Source: Alphaproteobacteria bacterium
Lineage (GTDB): Bacteria > Pseudomonadota > Alphaproteobacteria > Rhizobiales > Beijerinckiaceae
Assembly (NCBI GenBank): GCA_021325385.1
Contig: JAJPHH010000139.1
Location: 1 to 64,000, forward strand
DNA: 64,000 nucleotides
Direction: 5' to 3'
The position numbers and the translations under genes are program-made. How positions within the stretch are numbered: position 1 is the first letter of the stretch; each line of letters opens with the position of its first letter. Shown piece by piece: positions 34,110 to 45,298 of this stretch. The notes under the pieces were generated by a model. The model made no database searches and had not been told where the DNA came from. It was given only the letters and a program-made list of their open reading frames with translations.

Positions 34110-34185
34110 GCCGGCTTAGCTCAGTTGGTAGAGCAACTGATTTGTAATCAGTAGGTCGCGGGTTCGATCCCTGCAGCCGGCACCA
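34110..34185 (+). tRNA. tRNA-Thr (anticodon TGT)
   Basis: A complete cloverleaf. The acceptor stem is GCCGGCT/AGCCGGC, the D arm GCTC-AGTTGGTA-GAGC, and the anticodon stem ACTGA/TCAGT with loop TTTGTAA (anticodon TGT, reading ACA and probably other threonine codons). The variable loop is AGGTC and the T arm GCGGG-TTCGATC-CCTGC. Discriminator A is at 34182 and the CCA end is encoded (34183-34185). It is a typical integration site, and the DNA just downstream differs in composition. Confidence 0.97.
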
Positions 34186-34370
34186 TAATAAGGCCTGCAC
34201 ATCAAATAATTGTGGAGAGTAGCCGACAGCCTAGCTGGCACCGCCTCCGTCAGCGGACCCAAAGCGGACCCGATGGGCGTTTCTTCCTACTCTCGCCTGA
34301 GTCAAATATGCTGCGGGTATCTCCGCGAATCGGATAGGTTCCGCCGCCTGTTCGGCTCCGGCGCGCCTCG
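34186..34370. other. non-coding junction after the tRNA with a tandem 9-bp repeat
   Basis: No convincing gene. A tandem repeat AGCGGACCC-AA-AGCGGACCC lies at 34252-34271. The stretch between a tRNA 3' end and less GC-rich genes is where an attachment-site scar would be expected, but I found no second copy of the tRNA 3' end further on in the window. Confidence 0.4.
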
Positions 34371-35354
34371 ATGTCCAAAGGTGCAAGAAACCATCACTTC
34401 GTATCGCAATGCTACTTGCGGGGCTTCACCGCGGGAGAGCAGCGCACGAGCAAGCTGTTCGTCGTGGACATGATCAAACGGACGGCGTTTGAAACGCTCG
34501 CACGGAACGTCGCCGCGGAGCGAGACTTCAACCGCATTGATTTGGAGGCGCTGGACCCGAACGCCGTCGAGAACGACCTCGCCAATTTTGAGGGAAAGCT
34601 AGCGCCGGCGCTCAAGCGCATAAGGGAAAACGTCTCCCTTGACGACGGTGAGGATAGGACGATCTTTTTGAATTTCGTCTGTTTGTTGGCGATGCGGAAT
34701 CCTCGCCTCCGAGAAAGAATGGAGACGTTCGAAAAAACCGCGATAAATCGCCTTATGGAGCTGACGCTCTCCGACCGGAAAACCTGGGAGGCTCAAGTCC
34801 AAAAGGCCCGAGCAACCGGTTATCTGGCGGGCGAAGGTGTCGACTACGAAGAGGTCAAACGGCATTTTGAAGGCGAAGGGTTCTCGATCGAAATTCCACG
34901 GACGCGCCACGTCACGATTGAGATCAGACTCTTCGACAAGATTCTACCGGTCCTCTTCGAGAGGAGGTGGACCTTGCTCAAACCTCCCCCTGGCTCGGCC
35001 GGCTTTGTAACCTCCGACCATCCATTCTGCCTGATGTGGACTGACCCGAAGATGAGAGCCGGCCCTTACGGGCCAGGATTGGGGATGCGCGGAACCGAGA
35101 TTATTTTCCCGATCGCCAAGGACCTTGCTGCTATCGGTGTATTCGAAGGTGAAGAATCGGTTCGTCTTTTGCAGAGCGAGCAATTGGTCGCGCTGATCAA
35201 CGGCACTGTCATCGCGTTTGCCGAACGTCAGGTATACGGGCAAGACGATCGCTTCTGCTATTCGGTGCACGTTGACGAACCGCCGGCGAAGGCGCGGGAC
35301 CTGCTCAGGGATTACAGATTTCGTCGATTACGATCGAAGGATAAATCCCTGTGA
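34371..35354 (+). CDS. DUF4238 domain-containing protein
   Basis: A 327-residue cytoplasmic protein with the DUF4238 hallmark near the N-terminus: NHHFVSQCYLRGFT (residues 7-20), where the HHFxxxxYLRxF pattern is diagnostic. Further conserved-looking segments are MRNPRLRERMETFEK, the FVTSDHPFCLMW turn and TEIIFPIAKDLAAIGV. DUF4238 proteins are patchy, found on islands and near defence or mobile genes; their activity is unknown, though the paired histidines suggest a metal or catalytic centre. The coding sequence is clearly less GC-rich than neighbours. It is the first of two such genes behind the tRNA. Confidence 0.85.
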   Translation: MSKGARNHHFVSQCYLRGFTAGEQRTSKLFVVDMIKRTAFETLARNVAAERDFNRIDLEALDPNAVENDLANFEGKLAPALKRIRENVSLDDGEDRTIFLNFVCLLAMRNPRLRERMETFEKTAINRLMELTLSDRKTWEAQVQKARATGYLAGEGVDYEEVKRHFEGEGFSIEIPRTRHVTIEIRLFDKILPVLFERRWTLLKPPPGSAGFVTSDHPFCLMWTDPKMRAGPYGPGLGMRGTEIIFPIAKDLAAIGVFEGEESVRLLQSEQLVALINGTVIAFAERQVYGQDDRFCYSVHVDEPPAKARDLLRDYRFRRLRSKDKSL

Positions 35355-35502
35355 CGCTCATTCGCTCGGTGGCCGCCGGAAGGCTTCTTTGCCAAAAGGC
35401 TCGCCGCTCCTTGCTGGCTCTGGCGACTTTATGTCAGCCAGCGATGCTCATTGGACAATTTTCGAAGTGGGCGCAAGCAGGGCGCTGAGCAAGCGGGGAG
35501 AT

Positions 35503-36219
35503 ATGGCCGGAAGAACCTTTGTAATCGATTGCCCACGATGCAAAGCCAAGGTCGGCGTTGCCGAGCAGGGGCGAGTTGAGCAAATGGGTATCTACGATGG
35601 CGACCCCCACGGATTTCGTCTTTTGATTGGAGCATGCCCAGTGTGCTCAACGGCGGTGGCAGGGACGCAGGATCAGCTAGATTTTGCAGGATTTGACGCC
35701 GAAGAGGATCGCTGGTCCGACGTCGTGCGAGTGTATCCATCACCGCCCAAGGTGTATTCCAGTTTCCGAATTCCGGGAACGGTTTCCTCCTCACTCGCCG
35801 AGGCGGACAAGGCTATGCAAGCCGGTGCTCATATGGCGGCCTGCGTGATGTTCGGCCGCGCTCTTGAGGCAGTTTGCCGAGACATGCTTCGAGACGATGC
35901 CCCGGATTCACCCGAAAAACGGAAGAAGCATTTAATGCTAAGCAAAGGAATAAAGGAGCTTCGCGAGAAGAAAATTATTGACGATCGACTATATGATTGG
36001 AGCCAACATCTGCAGGCATTTCGAAATTTGGCTGCTCATCCCGACGAGGACTTCACGGCATCACGTCAGGATGTTGAGGACCTTCAAGCCTTCGTGCAAG
36101 CCATTGTTGAATACGTGTACGATCTTGCCGACCGGTATGCGGAGTTTAAGGCGAGAGTTGCCAGGCAGGAAAAGCGGAAACGCCCGCCCGAGGCCCAGGA
36201 GGAGATGGACGAGCCTTGA
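35503..36219 (+). CDS. zinc-ribbon DUF4145 (HEPN-like) protein
   Basis: A protein of about 238 residues. The N-terminal 50 residues carry a four-cysteine zinc ribbon (CPRC at 10-13, CPVC at 45-48). The C-terminal half is a DUF4145 helical domain (AGAHMAACVMFGRALEAVCRDML), ending with FRNLAAHPDEDF. Arg174 and His179 in RNLAAH make the R-x4-H motif typical of HEPN ribonuclease-type domains, to which DUF4145 is related. An RNA-cleaving, toxin- or defence-type role is therefore plausible but not shown. The start is uncertain: the ATG at 35503 follows GGGGAG too closely, and the ATG at 35431 is the alternative. It is less GC-rich than its surroundings, like the preceding DUF4238 gene. Confidence 0.75.
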   Translation: MAGRTFVIDCPRCKAKVGVAEQGRVEQMGIYDGDPHGFRLLIGACPVCSTAVAGTQDQLDFAGFDAEEDRWSDVVRVYPSPPKVYSSFRIPGTVSSSLAEADKAMQAGAHMAACVMFGRALEAVCRDMLRDDAPDSPEKRKKHLMLSKGIKELREKKIIDDRLYDWSQHLQAFRNLAAHPDEDFTASRQDVEDLQAFVQAIVEYVYDLADRYAEFKARVARQEKRKRPPEAQEEMDEP

Positions 36220-36605
36220 TCACCGTCGCCGCCAGCGCGGCGTGATAGCGGCCGATCGTAAGTGTCCTTCAAGCCGGGCAGGCCTTCAGCCCTCAATACT
36301 CTGTCAAGCTGATCTTCGGCACCCTTAAGCTCTACGACCGTCGAGCGAGGCTTCGCCGCCTCATCATCAGTTCGATGGCGTTTTGCCAAGCCGCGGCCTC
36401 GGGCCGCTCCTGAACACGCGCCGTCGGCGTCCGCTGATTCGCTAGGGCCTTATTCGTGCGTGACCCGGCAAGATTACGATTAACCACAGAGCGCAGGGCC
36501 AGCCATCGGCCGCGCGACGAGGACCGGTCGAGCCAAACAGCGGGAACAAACGGCTGACGAGGACGTTAGCAGACATTAAGGACGTCAGATTGCGCCGAAA
36601 ATTTG
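36220..36605. other. 386-base gap with a possible gene remnant on the minus strand
   Basis: No intact gene. On the minus strand between about 36420 and 36230 two overlapping frames give protein-like text (AAAWQNAIELMMRRR, and then VVELKGAEDQLDRVLRAEGL) without a usable start codon. This would fit a frameshifted remnant of a lost gene between the accessory pair and glgE. The rest is unremarkable and should hold the glgE promoter. Confidence 0.35.
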
Positions 36606-39600
36606 ATGCGCCGAGTCTATTCGATACCCTCGTCAGCGCTGCAGAGTACTGGAGACTGGCTCTCGATCCTATCGTCGTGCGCGGGGCTCGGTTTCGACAC
36701 TATTCTCCTTTCTCTCTCCAGTCAGAACATATTCGACGACCGACTCGCGCAGGGCTTGGTCTTGACCGACGCGGTCGCGCTCGCAACCGAGCGATCGCTG
36801 CAGGTTCTCGTTGAGGCGCCCGTCTCGTTCGCGCTCGCCGGAACGCCGGAAGCCGCCCGGCTTGGTCTTTCGGAACGAGCAAACCTGGCGCGTGACCCTC
36901 GCATTTCGCCTGCGCAGCGGTGTAGGCTCGCCGTACCTTTTTCCGATGACGCGATAGCGCGCCCGTGGCTCGAGGCGCTCCACAGCCGTCTGGTCGCGCT
37001 CGGAGGAATTGGCGTCGCCGGCTTCTGCTTTCAGCCAAGCCCGGAGGTCCCGCATTGGGCTTGGGGAGTTTTGTCCGGCCTCAATGCGGAAAGCGGCCGC
37101 GCAAAGCGTCCCGCCATCCCGCTTTGGGCGAACTTAACGCGCCTCGCCGACGCCTCGCATTTCGAGTCGGCTGGATTCGTCGGCGCCTTTGTTCCGGTCG
37201 CCAGCGTTTTCGACCCGGGACAATTCATGTCGCTTGGGCGCGCGGCGCGAGCGTTTCACCAAGTTATCCTTTCTCTGGATTGGCCCCCGCGGCGGAGCGA
37301 CGGCGAGGATTGGGATGAGGATTCGGCGGTAAGAAGGTCGAAGCTCCGTCTCTGGCTGTCGGCCGCGCTTGGCGATGGGATTGCGACGCCCCTGGGCTTC
37401 GAATATGGCCTTGAGCTACAGCCAAAGTGGAAGCGGCGCTTCGCCAAAAGCTGGGCTGAGCTCTCGAGCTATCGTTCGTTTGACTTGAGCGACGACGTCT
37501 TGGCGGCGAACGCCTTCATCGCCGATCAGAACAAGCAATTCGCTGAAGCCGCCGTAGCGCCGATTTGGCCCCGCTCCGCTAAAGTCGTCGCCGCTTTGCG
37601 ACGCTCCAATAATGGGGCGCATGTCCGCCTTGTCCTCGCCAATTCCGCCATCGATCATGAAGTATCCGTGCCTGCAGCGTCTGTTTCGCGGGAAATCGGA
37701 GAATTTCTGCCATTGAGGGACGCGCTCCATGTCGGGCCCGACCTCATGCCGGATGACACGATCACACTTCGGCCCGCCGAAGTTCGGATTCTCGATGGTC
37801 GCAAGCGAGCGACTATCCGGCTCTCCTCAAGCGAACCTTCTCCCGACCCCGTTTCGGCGGTCGCCGCTCCCCGCCTCGTAATCGAGGCTGTTTCGCCTTG
37901 CGTGGATAGTGGCCGTTATCCGGTCAAGCGCATTGTCGGCGAAGCCGTTCACATCGAAGCGGACGCCTATGGCGACGGACACGATCCGATCGCCGTCGCT
38001 CTCCTCTGGCGACCGGGGGATGAGACGTCGTGGCGCGAAAAACGAATGACCGCGATCGGCAACGACCGCTGGGCCGCCGAGTTTTCCCTCGATCGGGTGG
38101 GCCGCTACTTCTTTACGATCGAGGCGTGGCGCGACGAATTCGCCATTTACCAGTCCGAACTTTTGAAGAAGAGCAATGCCGGCCTGCCGATCGTCGTGGA
38201 GTTGGAAGAAGGGCGGCGCATTCTTCTCAACGCCGTCGAGGGTCCCATGGGCGAGGCCGCGGCGCGCCTCAGGAACATCATTTCCAGCTTCGACGAAGCG
38301 GACAATTCCCGGCGGCTTGCCCTTTTGCTTTCGTCCGAAACGGCCGCCGCCTTCGCCGCCGTCGATCGACGCCCTTTCAAATTGCGCCTCGAGCCGCCGA
38401 TCGCGATTGACGCCGAAAGGAAGAAGGCGGAGTTCGCCAGCTGGTACGAACTCTTTCCCCGCTCGCAAAGCGGCGATCCCAACCGCCATGGCGGTTTCGA
38501 CGATGTCGCGCGCCGGCTTCCGGCAATCCGAGACATGGGATTTGACGTCGTCTATTTCCCGCCCATCCACCCGATCGGCAAAACCAACCGCAAGGGGCGC
38601 AACAACGCTCTGATCGCGGGACCGGACGACCCCGGAAGCCCCTATGCGATCGGTTCAGACGAAGGCGGGCACAAAGCCATTCACCCGGCGCTTGGCACGC
38701 TTGGGAATTTCCGCCGCCTTGTCGCGGCGGCTGAACGATTGGGGATCGAAATTGCCTTGGATTTCGCCATCCAGGCTTCCCCCGATCACCCCTGGCTCAA
38801 ACAGCGCCCGGAATGGTTCACGTGGCGGCCGGACGGTTCGCTCCGTTATGCCGAGAATCCGCCGAAGAAATACGAAGACATCGTCAATGTCGATTTCTAC
38901 GCCGAAGGCGCGACGCCTTCATTGTGGATCGAATTGCGCGATACTTTGCTCTTCTGGATCGATCAGGGCGTCAAACTCTTCCGAGTCGACAATCCGCATA
39001 CGAAGCCCTTTCCTTTCTGGGACTGGGTCATCGACGACATAAGGCGAGGCAATCCGGACGTCATCTTCCTCTCGGAGGCCTTCACTCGGCCGAAGGTCAT
39101 GTACCGGCTAGCGAAAGGCGGCTTTTCCCAAAGCTATACCTATTTCACCTGGCGCAACACGAAAGCGGAGCTGACCGCCTACTTGACGGAGCTCGTCTCC
39201 GATCCCGTGAAGCAATTCTTTCGACCGCATTTCTTCGTCAATACGCCCGACATCAACCCGGATTTTTTGCAGAATGCGCCGCGTCCGGCCTTTCTCATTC
39301 GCGCCGCGCTCGCCGCGACCCTTTCCGGACTTTGGGGCATGTATAACGGGTTCGAGCTCTGCGAAGGCCGCCCGGACGCTCAGAAAAAAGAATATGCAGA
39401 CAGCGAAAAATACGAAATCCGCGCTTGGGACTGGAGCCGCCCCGGGAATATCATTGCCGAAATCGCCGCCCTCAACCGCATTCGACGCGAGAACCCCTGC
39501 CTCCACTCCCATCTTGGCCTCACATTCCTCAACGCATGGAACGACAACATCCTCTTCTTCGAAAAGGCGACAATCGGTCGTGAAAACGTTTGCGCCATTG

Positions 39601-39794
39601 CGGTCAACCTCGATCCCTATGCGGCGCACGAGGCGGATATTGAAATACCGTTGTGGAAATTCGGCCTACCCGACCACGGCAACCTGCAGGTCGAAGATCT
39701 GGTGCGCGGCTCGCGGTTCACTTGGACCGGCAAATATCAACGCGTCCGGCTTGACCCGCGCGAGTCGCCCTACTCGATTTGGCGGCTTAGCTGA
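36606..39794 (+). CDS. glgE: alpha-1,4-glucan:maltose-1-phosphate maltosyltransferase GlgE with long N-terminal extension
   Basis: A 1062-residue GH13 enzyme that transfers maltose from maltose 1-phosphate to growing alpha-1,4-glucan. The C-terminal 650 residues match GlgE. There is a DUF3416-type domain (PRLVIEAVSPCVDSGRYPVKRIVGE onward), FASWYELFPRS and VVYFPPIHPIGKTNRKG. The nucleophile is Asp795 in LFRVDNPHTKPFPFW and the acid/base Glu824 in FLSEAFTRPKVMY. The N-terminal 400 residues are extra compared with the roughly 670-residue actinobacterial enzyme and read like a degenerate GH13 barrel (AGLGFDTILLSLSSQNIF). The ATG at 36606 is preferred to a TTG just before it. treS-mak and glgB follow. 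Confidence 0.92.
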   Translation: MRRVYSIPSSALQSTGDWLSILSSCAGLGFDTILLSLSSQNIFDDRLAQGLVLTDAVALATERSLQVLVEAPVSFALAGTPEAARLGLSERANLARDPRISPAQRCRLAVPFSDDAIARPWLEALHSRLVALGGIGVAGFCFQPSPEVPHWAWGVLSGLNAESGRAKRPAIPLWANLTRLADASHFESAGFVGAFVPVASVFDPGQFMSLGRAARAFHQVILSLDWPPRRSDGEDWDEDSAVRRSKLRLWLSAALGDGIATPLGFEYGLELQPKWKRRFAKSWAELSSYRSFDLSDDVLAANAFIADQNKQFAEAAVAPIWPRSAKVVAALRRSNNGAHVRLVLANSAIDHEVSVPAASVSREIGEFLPLRDALHVGPDLMPDDTITLRPAEVRILDGRKRATIRLSSSEPSPDPVSAVAAPRLVIEAVSPCVDSGRYPVKRIVGEAVHIEADAYGDGHDPIAVALLWRPGDETSWREKRMTAIGNDRWAAEFSLDRVGRYFFTIEAWRDEFAIYQSELLKKSNAGLPIVVELEEGRRILLNAVEGPMGEAAARLRNIISSFDEADNSRRLALLLSSETAAAFAAVDRRPFKLRLEPPIAIDAERKKAEFASWYELFPRSQSGDPNRHGGFDDVARRLPAIRDMGFDVVYFPPIHPIGKTNRKGRNNALIAGPDDPGSPYAIGSDEGGHKAIHPALGTLGNFRRLVAAAERLGIEIALDFAIQASPDHPWLKQRPEWFTWRPDGSLRYAENPPKKYEDIVNVDFYAEGATPSLWIELRDTLLFWIDQGVKLFRVDNPHTKPFPFWDWVIDDIRRGNPDVIFLSEAFTRPKVMYRLAKGGFSQSYTYFTWRNTKAELTAYLTELVSDPVKQFFRPHFFVNTPDINPDFLQNAPRPAFLIRAALAATLSGLWGMYNGFELCEGRPDAQKKEYADSEKYEIRAWDWSRPGNIIAEIAALNRIRRENPCLHSHLGLTFLNAWNDNILFFEKATIGRENVCAIAVNLDPYAAHEADIEIPLWKFGLPDHGNLQVEDLVRGSRFTWTGKYQRVRLDPRESPYSIWRLS

Positions 39795-39806
39795 AGGCCG
39801 CGCGTC

Positions 39807-42800
39807 ATGGCAAGGCGTCCAAAATCTCAATTGGCGAAGGACCCTCTCTGGTACAAGGACGCGGTCATCTATCAACTACACGTCAAATCTTTCTTTGACG
39901 CCAATAATGACGGGATTGGCGATTTCGCCGGCTTGAACAGCAAGCTTGACTATATATCGAGCCTTGGGGTCAACGCCGTCTGGCTTCTGCCTTTCTATCC
40001 CTCGCCTCGGCGAGACGACGGCTACGACATCGCCGAATATAGAGATATCAGCGCGGATTACGGCACGATTTCCGAGTTCAAGGACTTCATCGCCGCAGCC
40101 CACGCACGCGGCATTCGTGTCATTACCGAGCTCGTGATCAATCATACTTCCGATCAACATCCCTGGTTTCAGAGGGCGCGACGCAAACCCGCCAATTCGA
40201 CCGCCAGGAATTACTACGTGTGGTCGGACACGGACAAGCGATATGAGGGGACGCGGGTCATCTTCTTGGACACAGAGAAGTCGAACTGGACGTGGGATCC
40301 TGTCGCCGGCGCCTATTTCTGGCACCGCTTCTACTCCCATCAGCCGGACCTGAATTTCGACAATCCGCGCGTGCTGAAAGAGGTCATCGGCGTGATGCGT
40401 TTTTGGCTCGACATGGGGGTCGACGGGCTTCGTTTGGACGCGATCCCGTATCTCATCGAACGAGAGGGGACGTCGAACGAGAATCTCCCTGAAACGCACA
40501 AGATCCTGAAGATAATCCGGGCGGAGCTCGACCGGCGCTATGACGACAAGATGCTGCTCGCGGAGGCCAATCAGTGGCCGGAGGACACGCAGGCCTATTT
40601 CGGCGAGGGCGACGAATGTCACATGGCGTTTCATTTTCCGCTGATGCCGCGCATGTATATGGCCATCGCCAAGGAGGATCGCTTCCCGATTACCGACATC
40701 CTGCGGCAGACGCCGGAAATTCCGGCCAACGCCCAATGGGCGATCTTCCTGCGAAATCATGACGAGCTCACCCTTGAAATGGTCACCGACGCCGAGCGGG
40801 ACTATCTTTGGAACGCCTACGCTTCCGACCGGCGCGCGCGCCTCAACCTCGGCATAAGACGTCGGCTCGCGCCGCTTCTCCAACGCGACAGGCGGCGCAT
40901 CGAACTGATGAACGGCCTCCTCCTGTCGATGCCTGGCACGCCGGTCATCTATTACGGCGACGAAATCGGCATGGGCGACAACATCCATCTCGGCGATCGC
41001 GACGGCGTGCGAACGCCGATGCAGTGGACCGAGGACCGCAACGGCGGCTTTTCGCGCGCCGATCCGTCGGCAATGGTTCTCCCGCCGATCATGGATCCGC
41101 TCTACGGCTATGAGGCCGTCAATGTCGAGGCGCAGGCGAGAGACCCGCACTCGCTGCTCAATTGGATGCGCCGGATGCTGCTCCTGCGGCGCAACCACAA
41201 AGTGTTCGGGCGCGGCAAGTTCCAGTTCATCTACCCGCGAAACAGGCGTATTCTCGCCTATCTGAGAGAATATGAAGAAGAGGTCGTACTCTGCGTCGCC
41301 AACCTCGCGCGCACGCCGCAGGCGGTCGAGCTCGATCTTTCAAGCTATGCCGGGCGAATACCGATCGAAATGACCGGACCATCGCCTTTTCCGCCGATCG
41401 GCCAACTCACTTATATGCTCACCCTCGCGCCTTATGGGTTCTATTGGTTCGAATTGAAGGCCTCCAGCGCCGAGGCGCCGAGCTGGCGCGACGAGCCGCC
41501 AGAGCAGATGCCTGATCTGCAGACCCTGGTCGTGCGCGAGAGCCTACGCGAGCTGCTCGGCGAGCGTCACTCCGCAACCATTCTGCGCGATCTTTTGCCG
41601 TCTTACCTCCAGAGACGGCGTTGGTTCGCATCGAAGAACGAGACGATTTCAAGCGTCCGCATCGCCTATGCGGCGCAACCGCCGTCACATCGGGAAATCA
41701 TGCTTACGGAGATCGAGGTCCGCTTGCGCGATCGCGAGGAGCGCTACCTTGTTCCAGCGGGCATCGCCTGGGAAGGGGCGAGCCCGCAGCCATTGGCTCA
41801 GCAACTCGCCATGGCTCGCGTGAGGCGCGGGCGTCGGGTCGGCTTCATAACCGACGCATTCGCTCTCGAAGCCCTGCCGCGCGCCATCATGGCGTGGCTG
41901 CGCGAGCGCGCCGTTTTTGAAACGCCTGACGGCGCGATCCGCTGCTTGGCTGAGCCCGGCCTCGACGCCTTGCCGGATATGAGCGACGCCGCAGTGCGCT
42001 GGCTCTCGGCGGAGCAATCGAACAGCTCGCTCATAATCGGCAACGCCGCGATGATCAAGCTGATCAGACGCGTTTCGCCCGGCATACATCCTGAAGCCGA
42101 AATGACCCGCCGGCTGACGCTGAGCGGCTTCGCCCACGCTCCCCAGCTCCTCGGCGAGATCGTGCGCTTCGATCAGCGCGACGTCCCCCATACCCTCTTC
42201 ATCATCCAAGGCAACATCCCGAATCAGGGCGACGCCTGGACCTGGACCCTCGACAATCTTCGCCGCGCTCTTGAAGATGCGGCCCTGGAGAATGAGGGCG
42301 GCGAGCCCGCCTCGCATCCGTTCCGGCTGCTCGACGAATTCGCGGCTCTGACCGGCAAGAGGCTCGGCGAACTTCACGTAACCCTCGCCGCCGAGACGGA
42401 CGACAGCGCCTTCTCGCCAGTCGTCATCGACGAGGCTTTGGCGTCAACATGGGCGCAAGGCGCGGCGGATCAGATCGAACGCTGCTTGCGCGATCTGGAG
42501 CGCGAGAAGCGCAATCTCGATTCGACGCATCAGGCTTTGGCGGATTCCGTACTCGCTCGCAAAGCGGACCTCATCGCGAGTTTGCCTGGCCTGGCCGCCT
42601 CGGGCCTTGGCGGGCTCGCGATTCGCGTTCACGGCGATTTTCACCTCGGTCAGATTTTGATCTCCCAGTCCGACGTCTACATCATCGACTTCGAGGGGGA
42701 GCCCTTGCGATCCCTCGATCAACGTCGGATCAAAACGACGCCTTTGCGCGATGTCGCCGGCTTCTTGCGCTCGCTCGACTACGCCGCGGCCTCCTTGGCT

Positions 42801-43097
42801 TTGCCTATGAACGACGTAAGCCCGCAGCCTGTCCGAGAGCGTCGAGCGGAACTGCTCGCGCGGTTCCGGCGCGAGGCGTTTGCGGCGTTCTTGAAATCGT
42901 ACTGGCAAGCTGTCAGAGCCGCCCCTCGACTCGGCCTATCGCCCTCCCGAGGGCCGCTTCTCAGCCTCATGCTGCTCGAGAAAGCGAGTTATGAAATCAG
43001 CTACGAAGCCGCCAACCGGCCGAACTGGCTGGCGATTCCGCTTCGCGGCTTCGCGACAATCATTAACCGTCTCGACATGGGGGGTCGCCGCTCATGA
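39807..43097 (+). CDS. treS: trehalose synthase-maltokinase fusion (TreS-Mak)
   Basis: A 1096-residue bifunctional protein. Residues 1-550 are trehalose synthase (GH13), interconverting trehalose and maltose: [20 protein letters not shown] start, nucleophile Asp211 in [10 protein letters not shown], acid/base Glu253 in LLAEANQWP, and Asp319 in RNHDELT. The C-terminal 500 residues are a maltokinase with the kinase-like [25 protein letters not shown], which phosphorylates maltose with ATP to maltose 1-phosphate, the GlgE donor. The fusion is common outside actinobacteria. It starts 12 bases after glgE and overlaps glgB by four bases. Confidence 0.95.
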
Positions 43098-45298
43098 CGA
43101 TTGGCCAGGATTGCCTCGCCGGGATCAGCGCCGAGGCGGTGCAGGCGCTCGTCGACGGGCGTCATGGCGATCCGTTCTCCATTCTCGGCCCGCACCAATG
43201 CGGACCAATGTCGGTTGTTCGCGCTCTGGCGCCCGGCGCACAGAAGATCGAGGTCGTGGCGAGAGAGGATTCTAGTTTCTTGGGCCGCCTGGAGCTCGCC
43301 CATCCCGGCGGCTTATTCGCCGGCCCGGTGAGCAGCGGCCGGCCCTATCGGCTCGTCATCCAATGGCCGCTGGCCGTGCAGAAAACAGAGGACCCTTACA
43401 GTTTCGGCCTTCTCCTTGGCGAGCTCGATCTTCATTTGATCTCGGAAGGCACGCATTACGAACTCGCGCGCTGCCTCGGCGCGCAGACAATGACGATCGG
43501 CGGCGTGTCGGGGGTGCGATTCGCGGTTTGGGCGCCGAACGCGAGAAGGGTCTCGGTGGTTGGCGGCTTTAACAGCTGGGATGGCCGGCGTCACCCGATG
43601 CGTCTGCGCCGCGAGGCCGGCGTCTGGGAGCTGTTTATTCCGCGAATTCGCGCCGGCGCGCTCTATAAGTACGAATTGCTCGGCCCCGGCGGAGCGCTGC
43701 TCCCGCAAAAGGCCGATCCTGTGGCACGGGCAAGCGAGGCTTCGCCAGGCACCGCCTCCATTGTCGCTTCGAGCGAGCCTTTCGTCTGGACGGATCAGGA
43801 TTGGATCGCAAAGAGAAGCGAGCGCCAGAGGCTCGATAGGCCTATCTCGATATACGAAGTTCACGCGGGATCCTGGCTGCGAATCGTCGAAGAGGAGTTT
43901 CGAAGCCTTACCTGGTCCGAGATGGGCGAACGGCTCGTGCCCTATTTGGTCGAGATGGGATTCACCCATCTCGAATTCTTGCCTATTGCCGAATATCCGT
44001 TCGGCGGCTCCTGGGGCTACCAGCCTCTTGGGCTTTTCAGCCCCACTGGCCGCTACGGACGAGCCGACGAATTCGCGGCGCTGATCGATATTTGCCATGA
44101 GGCGGGCATTGGCGTGATCGTCGATTGGGTGCCGGCCCATTTTCCCACTGACGTCTGGGGCCTCGCCCGTTTCGACGGAACTGCGCTCTATGAGCACCAA
44201 GACCCGCGCGAGGGGTTTCACAAGGACTGGAACACGCTGATCTACAATCTCGGACGCAACGAGGTGAAAGGATTCCTCATCGCCAGCGCGCTCGAATGGA
44301 TCGAACATTATCATGTCGACGCCCTACGCGTCGATGCTGTCGCTTCGATGCTTTATCGTGATTACAGCCGCAATCCAGGCGAGTGGATCCCCAACCGCTA
44401 CGGCGGGCGAGAGAACCTCGAGGCGATAGAGTTCTTCAAGCACTTGAACAGCATCATCCATCAGCGCAATCCCGGCGTTCTCATGATCGCCGAGGAATCG
44501 ACCGCGTGGCCGAAAGTGACGGCGCCGCCGTCTGAAGGCGGGCTCGGCTTTTCATTGAAATGGAATATGGGCTGGATGCACGACACGCTCCATTACATGT
44601 CGAAGGATCCCGTCTACCGCTCCTACGAACATCATTCGATGACTTTCGGCATGGTCTATGCCTATTCCGAGCGCTTCGTACTGCCGCTGTCCCATGACGA
44701 AGTGGTGCATGGAAAAGGATCGCTCATTCAGAAGATGCCGGGGGATTATTGGCAGCGCTTCGCGAATCTTCGCGCCTATCTGGGTTGGATGTGGACTTTC
44801 CCCGGCAAAAAACTGCTCTTCATGGGCGGCGAAATCGCGCAGTGGAGCGAATGGAGGAGCGACGGCTCGATCGAATGGGATTTGCTCGATTTTCCGCTCC
44901 ACCGCGGCGTCCAGACGCTGGTCTGCGATCTGAACGCCATTTACCGGGAGCGGCCGGCGCTCCACGCGTCGGATGACGACCCCGCTGGTTTCCAATGGGC
45001 CGTCGCCGATGACCGGACGAATTCCGTCTACGCCTTTTTGCGCCGCGCCGGCGACAGCTCGGTCGTTCTCGTCGCGAGCAACATGACGCCGGTTCCGCGC
45101 TATAACTATCGCATCCGGGTCGATCGGGAGGGCGGCTGGCGCGAATTGCTGAATTCCGACTCTTCCCATTACGGCGGCGGAAATCTCGGCAATGGCGGCC
45201 GGATCGTCGCCTATCCGACGCATAGCGGCGCGGAGCTCAGCCTGACGCTGCCTCCTTTGGCGACGCTCATCCTCGCGCCGGACGAGAGCCGTTTCTGA
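43094..45298 (+). CDS. glgB: 1,4-alpha-glucan branching enzyme
   Basis: A 734-residue GH13/CBM48 enzyme that adds alpha-1,6 branches to linear glucan made by GlgE. The N-terminal CBM48-like modules ([10 protein letters not shown] and [22 protein letters not shown]) precede the barrel. The nucleophile is Asp414 in [15 protein letters not shown] and the acid/base Glu467 in [10 protein letters not shown], with a C-terminal beta domain. It is the third gene of the GlgE operon and overlaps treS-mak by ATGA. It converges with the TetR gene of the next region. Confidence 0.95.

Follow-up and report, generated by a model that had tools for sequence, protein, structure and literature searches.

A DUF4238 antiphage family gene and a zinc-ribbon DUF4145 gene behind a tRNA-Thr look like chance neighbors

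The stretch of DNA analyzed here in its entirety (64,000 nucleotides, hereafter the window) carries two genes that follow a tRNA-Thr gene on the same strand (Table 1). A preliminary description, made from the letters and open reading frames, had recognized the tRNA-Thr with its encoded CCA end, a DUF4238 gene, and a second gene joining a CPRC/CPVC zinc ribbon to a DUF4145 domain; ARAGORN, Rfam, and Pfam confirmed each of these assignments. The less GC-rich, island-like character of the DNA, at about 55% against the window, was likewise borne out. The GC content is 55.6% in the DUF4238 gene and 54.8% in the DUF4145 gene, compared to 64.7% in the window, and GC at third codon positions is lower in both genes as well.

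Table 1. Position and identification of features at and downstream of the tRNA-Thr (window numbering)
Feature	Position	Strand	Identification
tRNA-Thr, anticodon TGT, encoded CCA	34110-34185	+	ARAGORN; Rfam RF00005, 74.4 bits; bounds variable region
DUF4238 gene, 327 aa	34371-35354	+	Pfam PF14022; PADLOC DUF4238-Pers (PDLC03000); phrog_29785
Zinc-ribbon plus DUF4145 (HEPN-clan) gene, 238 aa	35503-36219	+	Pfam PF13643; phrog_1305, 2.4e-22
glgE, treS-maltokinase fusion, glgB cluster	36603-45298		Lowered GC

The DUF4238 protein matched the Pfam family over residues 7 to 293 (E=1.3e-37) and carries the motif HHFVSQCYLRGF. The match to the defense-specific PADLOC model DUF4238-Pers was far stronger (E=1.2e-65) and full length, with residues 5 to 297 aligning to positions 4 to 295 of the 309 in the model, and the phage family phrog_29785 matched at 5e-63. 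All 11 residues that are invariant in a 35-sequence alignment of the family (H9, Q13, Y15, L16, F19, E67, W200, D216, P218, F258, and N277) are retained in the window protein. Relatives of the protein occur in plasmids, P2-like phages, and defense islands. The phage collection contained a single relative, ORF11 of the P2-like phage pro483 (36% identity over residues 5 to 297, 90% of the query), which sits between the replication protein and capsid packaging genes.

Antiphage activity in this family is known for one member, a single DUF4238 protein from an Escherichia coli P2-phage hotspot that conferred strong resistance to T7 (Rousset 2022, PMC9122126). As the position of the pro483 relative corresponds to the kind of P2 hotspot that yielded this resistance, a single-gene reading is favored. 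Judged by its sequence, the window gene is a new member of this published single-gene antiphage family, and a defense function would be transferred to it by homology at 36% identity. The link to defense suspected in the preliminary description is thus supported by the PADLOC match, as well as by the defense genes that often neighbor DUF4238 elsewhere. Its remark that no recombinase is present held for the flanking genes scanned, but the accompanying statement that no known defense gene is present did not, as DUF4238 is itself a tested family.

No other known defense gene was recognized among the Pfam-scanned neighbors of the DUF4238 gene. Together with the transfer of the role at only 36% identity, this would be compatible with a function of the protein outside defense. 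However, the far stronger score of the defense-specific model over the broad Pfam family, and the occurrence of relatives in plasmids, P2-like phages, and defense islands, argue against such a function, and we regard it as extremely unlikely.

The AlphaFold model of the DUF4238 protein is confident (mean pLDDT of 91). A Foldseek comparison of this model with the PDB returned no match among solved structures (best E of 0.68), and the fold appears to be unrepresented there. Among viral models, the only real match was a protein of Stenotrophomonas phage Smp131 (11% identity, E of 2e-10). The invariant residues, including H9, Q13, E67, W200, D216, and N277, suggest an active site. The protein is probably an enzyme, to whose active site the invariant Y15 would also contribute.

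The second protein matched DUF4145 over residues 100 to 194 (E=3.9e-12; 46.5 bits against a cutoff of 23.1), and the zinc-ribbon pairs C10-P-R-C13 and C45-P-V-C48 lie N-terminal to this domain. With the ATG at 35503 as the start, just upstream of which GGGGAG is found, the protein contains R174-N-L-A-A-H179, numbered as previously described and matching the HEPN-type pattern R-x4-6-H. Two alternative starts, TTG at 35218 and ATG at 35431, were rejected, as the ribosome site belongs to 35503 and the extensions lack family support. In an alignment of seven sequences, H179 and C45 were invariant, while an Arg at the position of R174 was present in two of the seven; most of the other DUF4145 members aligned have their Arg three residues earlier. 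The single-sequence structural model of this protein was of low confidence (pLDDT of 47.7). A survey of HEPN proteins lists zinc-ribbon fusions and gives about 80% motif conservation for DUF4145 (PMC3710099). An RNase activity of the window protein is plausible. Searches of the genome-contig, viral-contig, phage, and plasmid collections retrieved no relatives of the protein.

The two genes are 148 bp apart. As they lie on the same strand and no terminator-like site was found between them on that strand, cotranscription is possible; a promoter scan gave nothing above chance. The preliminary description had proposed that they could form a small undescribed two-gene system, a proposal that it staked on the pair recurring elsewhere. 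DUF4238 relatives were gathered from plasmids, 80 genome contigs, viral contigs, and order-level genomes, giving 96 loci, at which the nearest upstream and downstream frames (90 of each) were scanned with Pfam. Family profiles detected no above-threshold relative of the DUF4145 protein within 6 kb of any of the 96 DUF4238 genes, and the best subthreshold matches had E values of 0.036 (L074) and 0.058 (L122). PF13643 was present in 15 of 50 DUF4238-bearing genomes, in every case on another contig or far away from DUF4238. Likewise, in a class-level sample of 190 genomes, DUF4238 was detected in 12 and DUF4145 in 19, and both occurred in 3, including the window genome; in the other two, the genes were separated by 1.2 Mb or located on different contigs. 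The seven loci at which relatives of the DUF4145 protein were inspected had no DUF4238 gene nearby. The relatives were mostly set among metabolic genes, for example those for ribonucleotide reductase, acetate kinase, and transhydrogenase, and phage genes were seen occasionally.

Overall, no above-threshold DUF4145 gene was adjacent to DUF4238 elsewhere in the 96 loci, the 50 genomes, or the class-level sample. As adjacency was not conserved in the unrelated genomes searched, and as a DUF4238 gene has been published as a defense system by itself, the proposed two-gene system was abandoned. The pairing comparison is partly limited, as no close relative of the DUF4145 protein was found among 249 genomes at the order level and 385 at the class level, and the missing conserved pairing partly reflects how few informative relatives this protein has.

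The genes found next to DUF4238 at other loci were varied. Among the top 25 neighbor families of each list, no Pfam family occurred at more than two loci, and an all-against-all BLAST comparison of the neighbors produced clusters of at most three. A fixed partner would therefore not be needed, as no neighbor family recurs among the DUF4238 relatives. The neighbors included PARIS AriA/AriB, DrmC, RT, Upx, AbiH, ApeA, Ymh, Lamassu LmuB, and type IIG and type II RM genes. This diverse and often defensive company supports a role of DUF4238 in defense and its independence from any one partner; many defense neighbors and no recurrent partner are as expected for a self-sufficient gene in defense islands. 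At three Agrobacterium/Rhizobium loci (L058:8161-8727, L060:7950-8726, and L111:7073-7741), DUF4238 is directly followed by a frame of 189 to 259 aa without a Pfam match, perhaps an accessory gene specific to this lineage.

At some six to nine of the 96 loci, a HEPN-type gene adjoins DUF4238, and these genes belong to differing subfamilies: Abi_2-like (L071), ApeA (L129), Ymh (L130), weak DUF4145 (L074 and L107), and unclassified (L122). The gene in Accumulibacter (L074:7000-7545) is on the same strand as DUF4238, contains IRDIRNEFAH, and scores 17.4 bits against PF13643, which is below the threshold. In Saccharibacillus, the HEPN-like gene (L122:5227-5883) contains VNQIRNKFAH and is divergent from DUF4238. 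Motifs of the R-N-x-x-x-H type numbered 9 in 212,164 residues near DUF4238 (shuffled mean of 2.65) and 14 in 461,649 residues further away and are thus only slightly more common near the gene. As this excess is weak, HEPN neighbors were dropped as a DUF4238-linked class, and they are best read as defense-island company.

In a two-gene defense system, DUF4238 would be an infection sensor with the HEPN RNase as its effector, or a toxin with the HEPN protein as its modulator. The adjacency, shared strand, and similarly low GC of the two genes would fit such a system, as would the HEPN-type genes that adjoin DUF4238 at L074, L122, L071, L129, and L130. However, a DUF4238 gene has been validated as a system by itself (PMC9122126), the pairing was not conserved across the loci and genomes searched, and the HEPN neighbors are of different subfamilies, with a motif rate only slightly elevated near DUF4238. 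We therefore consider this arrangement quite improbable. It is very improbable that DUF4238 sometimes recruits an interchangeable neighboring HEPN RNase as effector or modulator, the window being an instance in which the recruited gene encodes a zinc-ribbon DUF4145 protein.

The cupin-tRNA-Thr gene order upstream of the two genes is kept in seven genomes of the genus and includes pyrE where the contig allows. As nucleotide similarity to the window stops at the tRNA-Thr in all seven of these relatives sharing the upstream genes, the spot behind it is variable. In two relatives, transposase-like or phage-like sequence was found behind a tRNA-Thr. A transposase-like frame (L178, G007:C293, 3231-4144) lies closely behind a tRNA-Thr that is 96% identical to that of the window. 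Downstream of the DUF4145 gene, lowered GC (about 58 to 63%) continues into the glgE-treS-glgB cluster, and none of the ten other genus genomes yielded a glgE orthologue. Both observations indicate that the foreign tract may extend past position 36219, and the cluster may have been acquired as well.

Integration at the tRNA-Thr is plausible, given that the seven relatives with the same upstream genes have a different sequence behind it. However, the 3' end of the tRNA has no second copy or direct repeat in the window or in the genome, no integrase was detected by Pfam among the flanking genes scanned (a subset of frames), and no empty site behind the tRNA-Thr was found. As the attachment repeat, integrase, and empty site were all missing from these searches, we infer integration rather than observe it. 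For the integration spot proposed in the preliminary description, the sequence behind the tRNA proved variable, while the integrase and direct repeat of a tRNA-integrated island were not found.

Alternatively, a genomic island could once have entered the tRNA-Thr, shed its integrase, and left a remnant in which the two genes are leftover, perhaps decaying, cargo. Consistent with this history, the sequence past the tRNA is unlike that of the seven relatives with the same pyrE-cupin-tRNA order, GC is low, no glgE orthologue was found in the other genomes of the genus (a hint of further foreign DNA), and two relatives have transposase- or phage-like sequence behind a tRNA-Thr. In contrast, the 3'-end repeat was not found in the window or genome, nor an integrase in the flanking genes scanned, both frames are open, and the family-invariant residues of DUF4238 are all kept, with no sign of decay. 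A remnant therefore seems rather unlikely.

We consider it likely that the two genes are cargo, independent of each other, at a position of the chromosome behind the tRNA-Thr that varies between relatives: a solitary DUF4238 defense gene of a known family and an unrelated HEPN gene. The two look like chance neighbors rather than a new two-gene system. By homology, the DUF4238 protein would act alone against a subset of phages, stopping them once infection has occurred, possibly with an abortive-type outcome. The DUF4145 protein would be a stand-alone zinc-ribbon/HEPN protein, possibly an RNase or an RNA-binding regulator, with the zinc ribbon directing it. Its family is diverse, and the other members examined had no DUF4238 neighbor and were mostly located among housekeeping genes. 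A candidate two-gene system is thus set aside, and its first gene is assigned to a published defense family. As a finding, the locus is ordinary, and its mild interest lies in a DUF4238 fold without a match among solved structures. With a model at a pLDDT of 91 and a limited set of invariant residues to target, the mechanism of the family becomes directly testable by point mutation.

The DUF4145 domain is shared with BxaP, a BREX-associated defense protein (PMC10799925). However, BxaP has a HEAT-like C terminus and is associated with BREX, whereas the window locus has no such context. The window protein resembles the zinc-ribbon DUF4145 HEPN proteins (PF13643, phrog_1305; PMC3710099) in its N-terminal CxxC/CxxC ribbon, C-terminal DUF4145 domain, and invariant H179. 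It differs from them in that no close relative was found and in that its Arg precedes the His with x4 spacing, whereas in most relatives examined it is three residues earlier. Compared to the DUF4238 single-gene system (PADLOC DUF4238-Pers; PMC9122126), the window gene is chromosomal behind a tRNA rather than in a P2 hotspot and is followed by a DUF4145 gene, and it is known here from its sequence. In full-length homology, invariant residues, and mobile or variable location, the two are the same.
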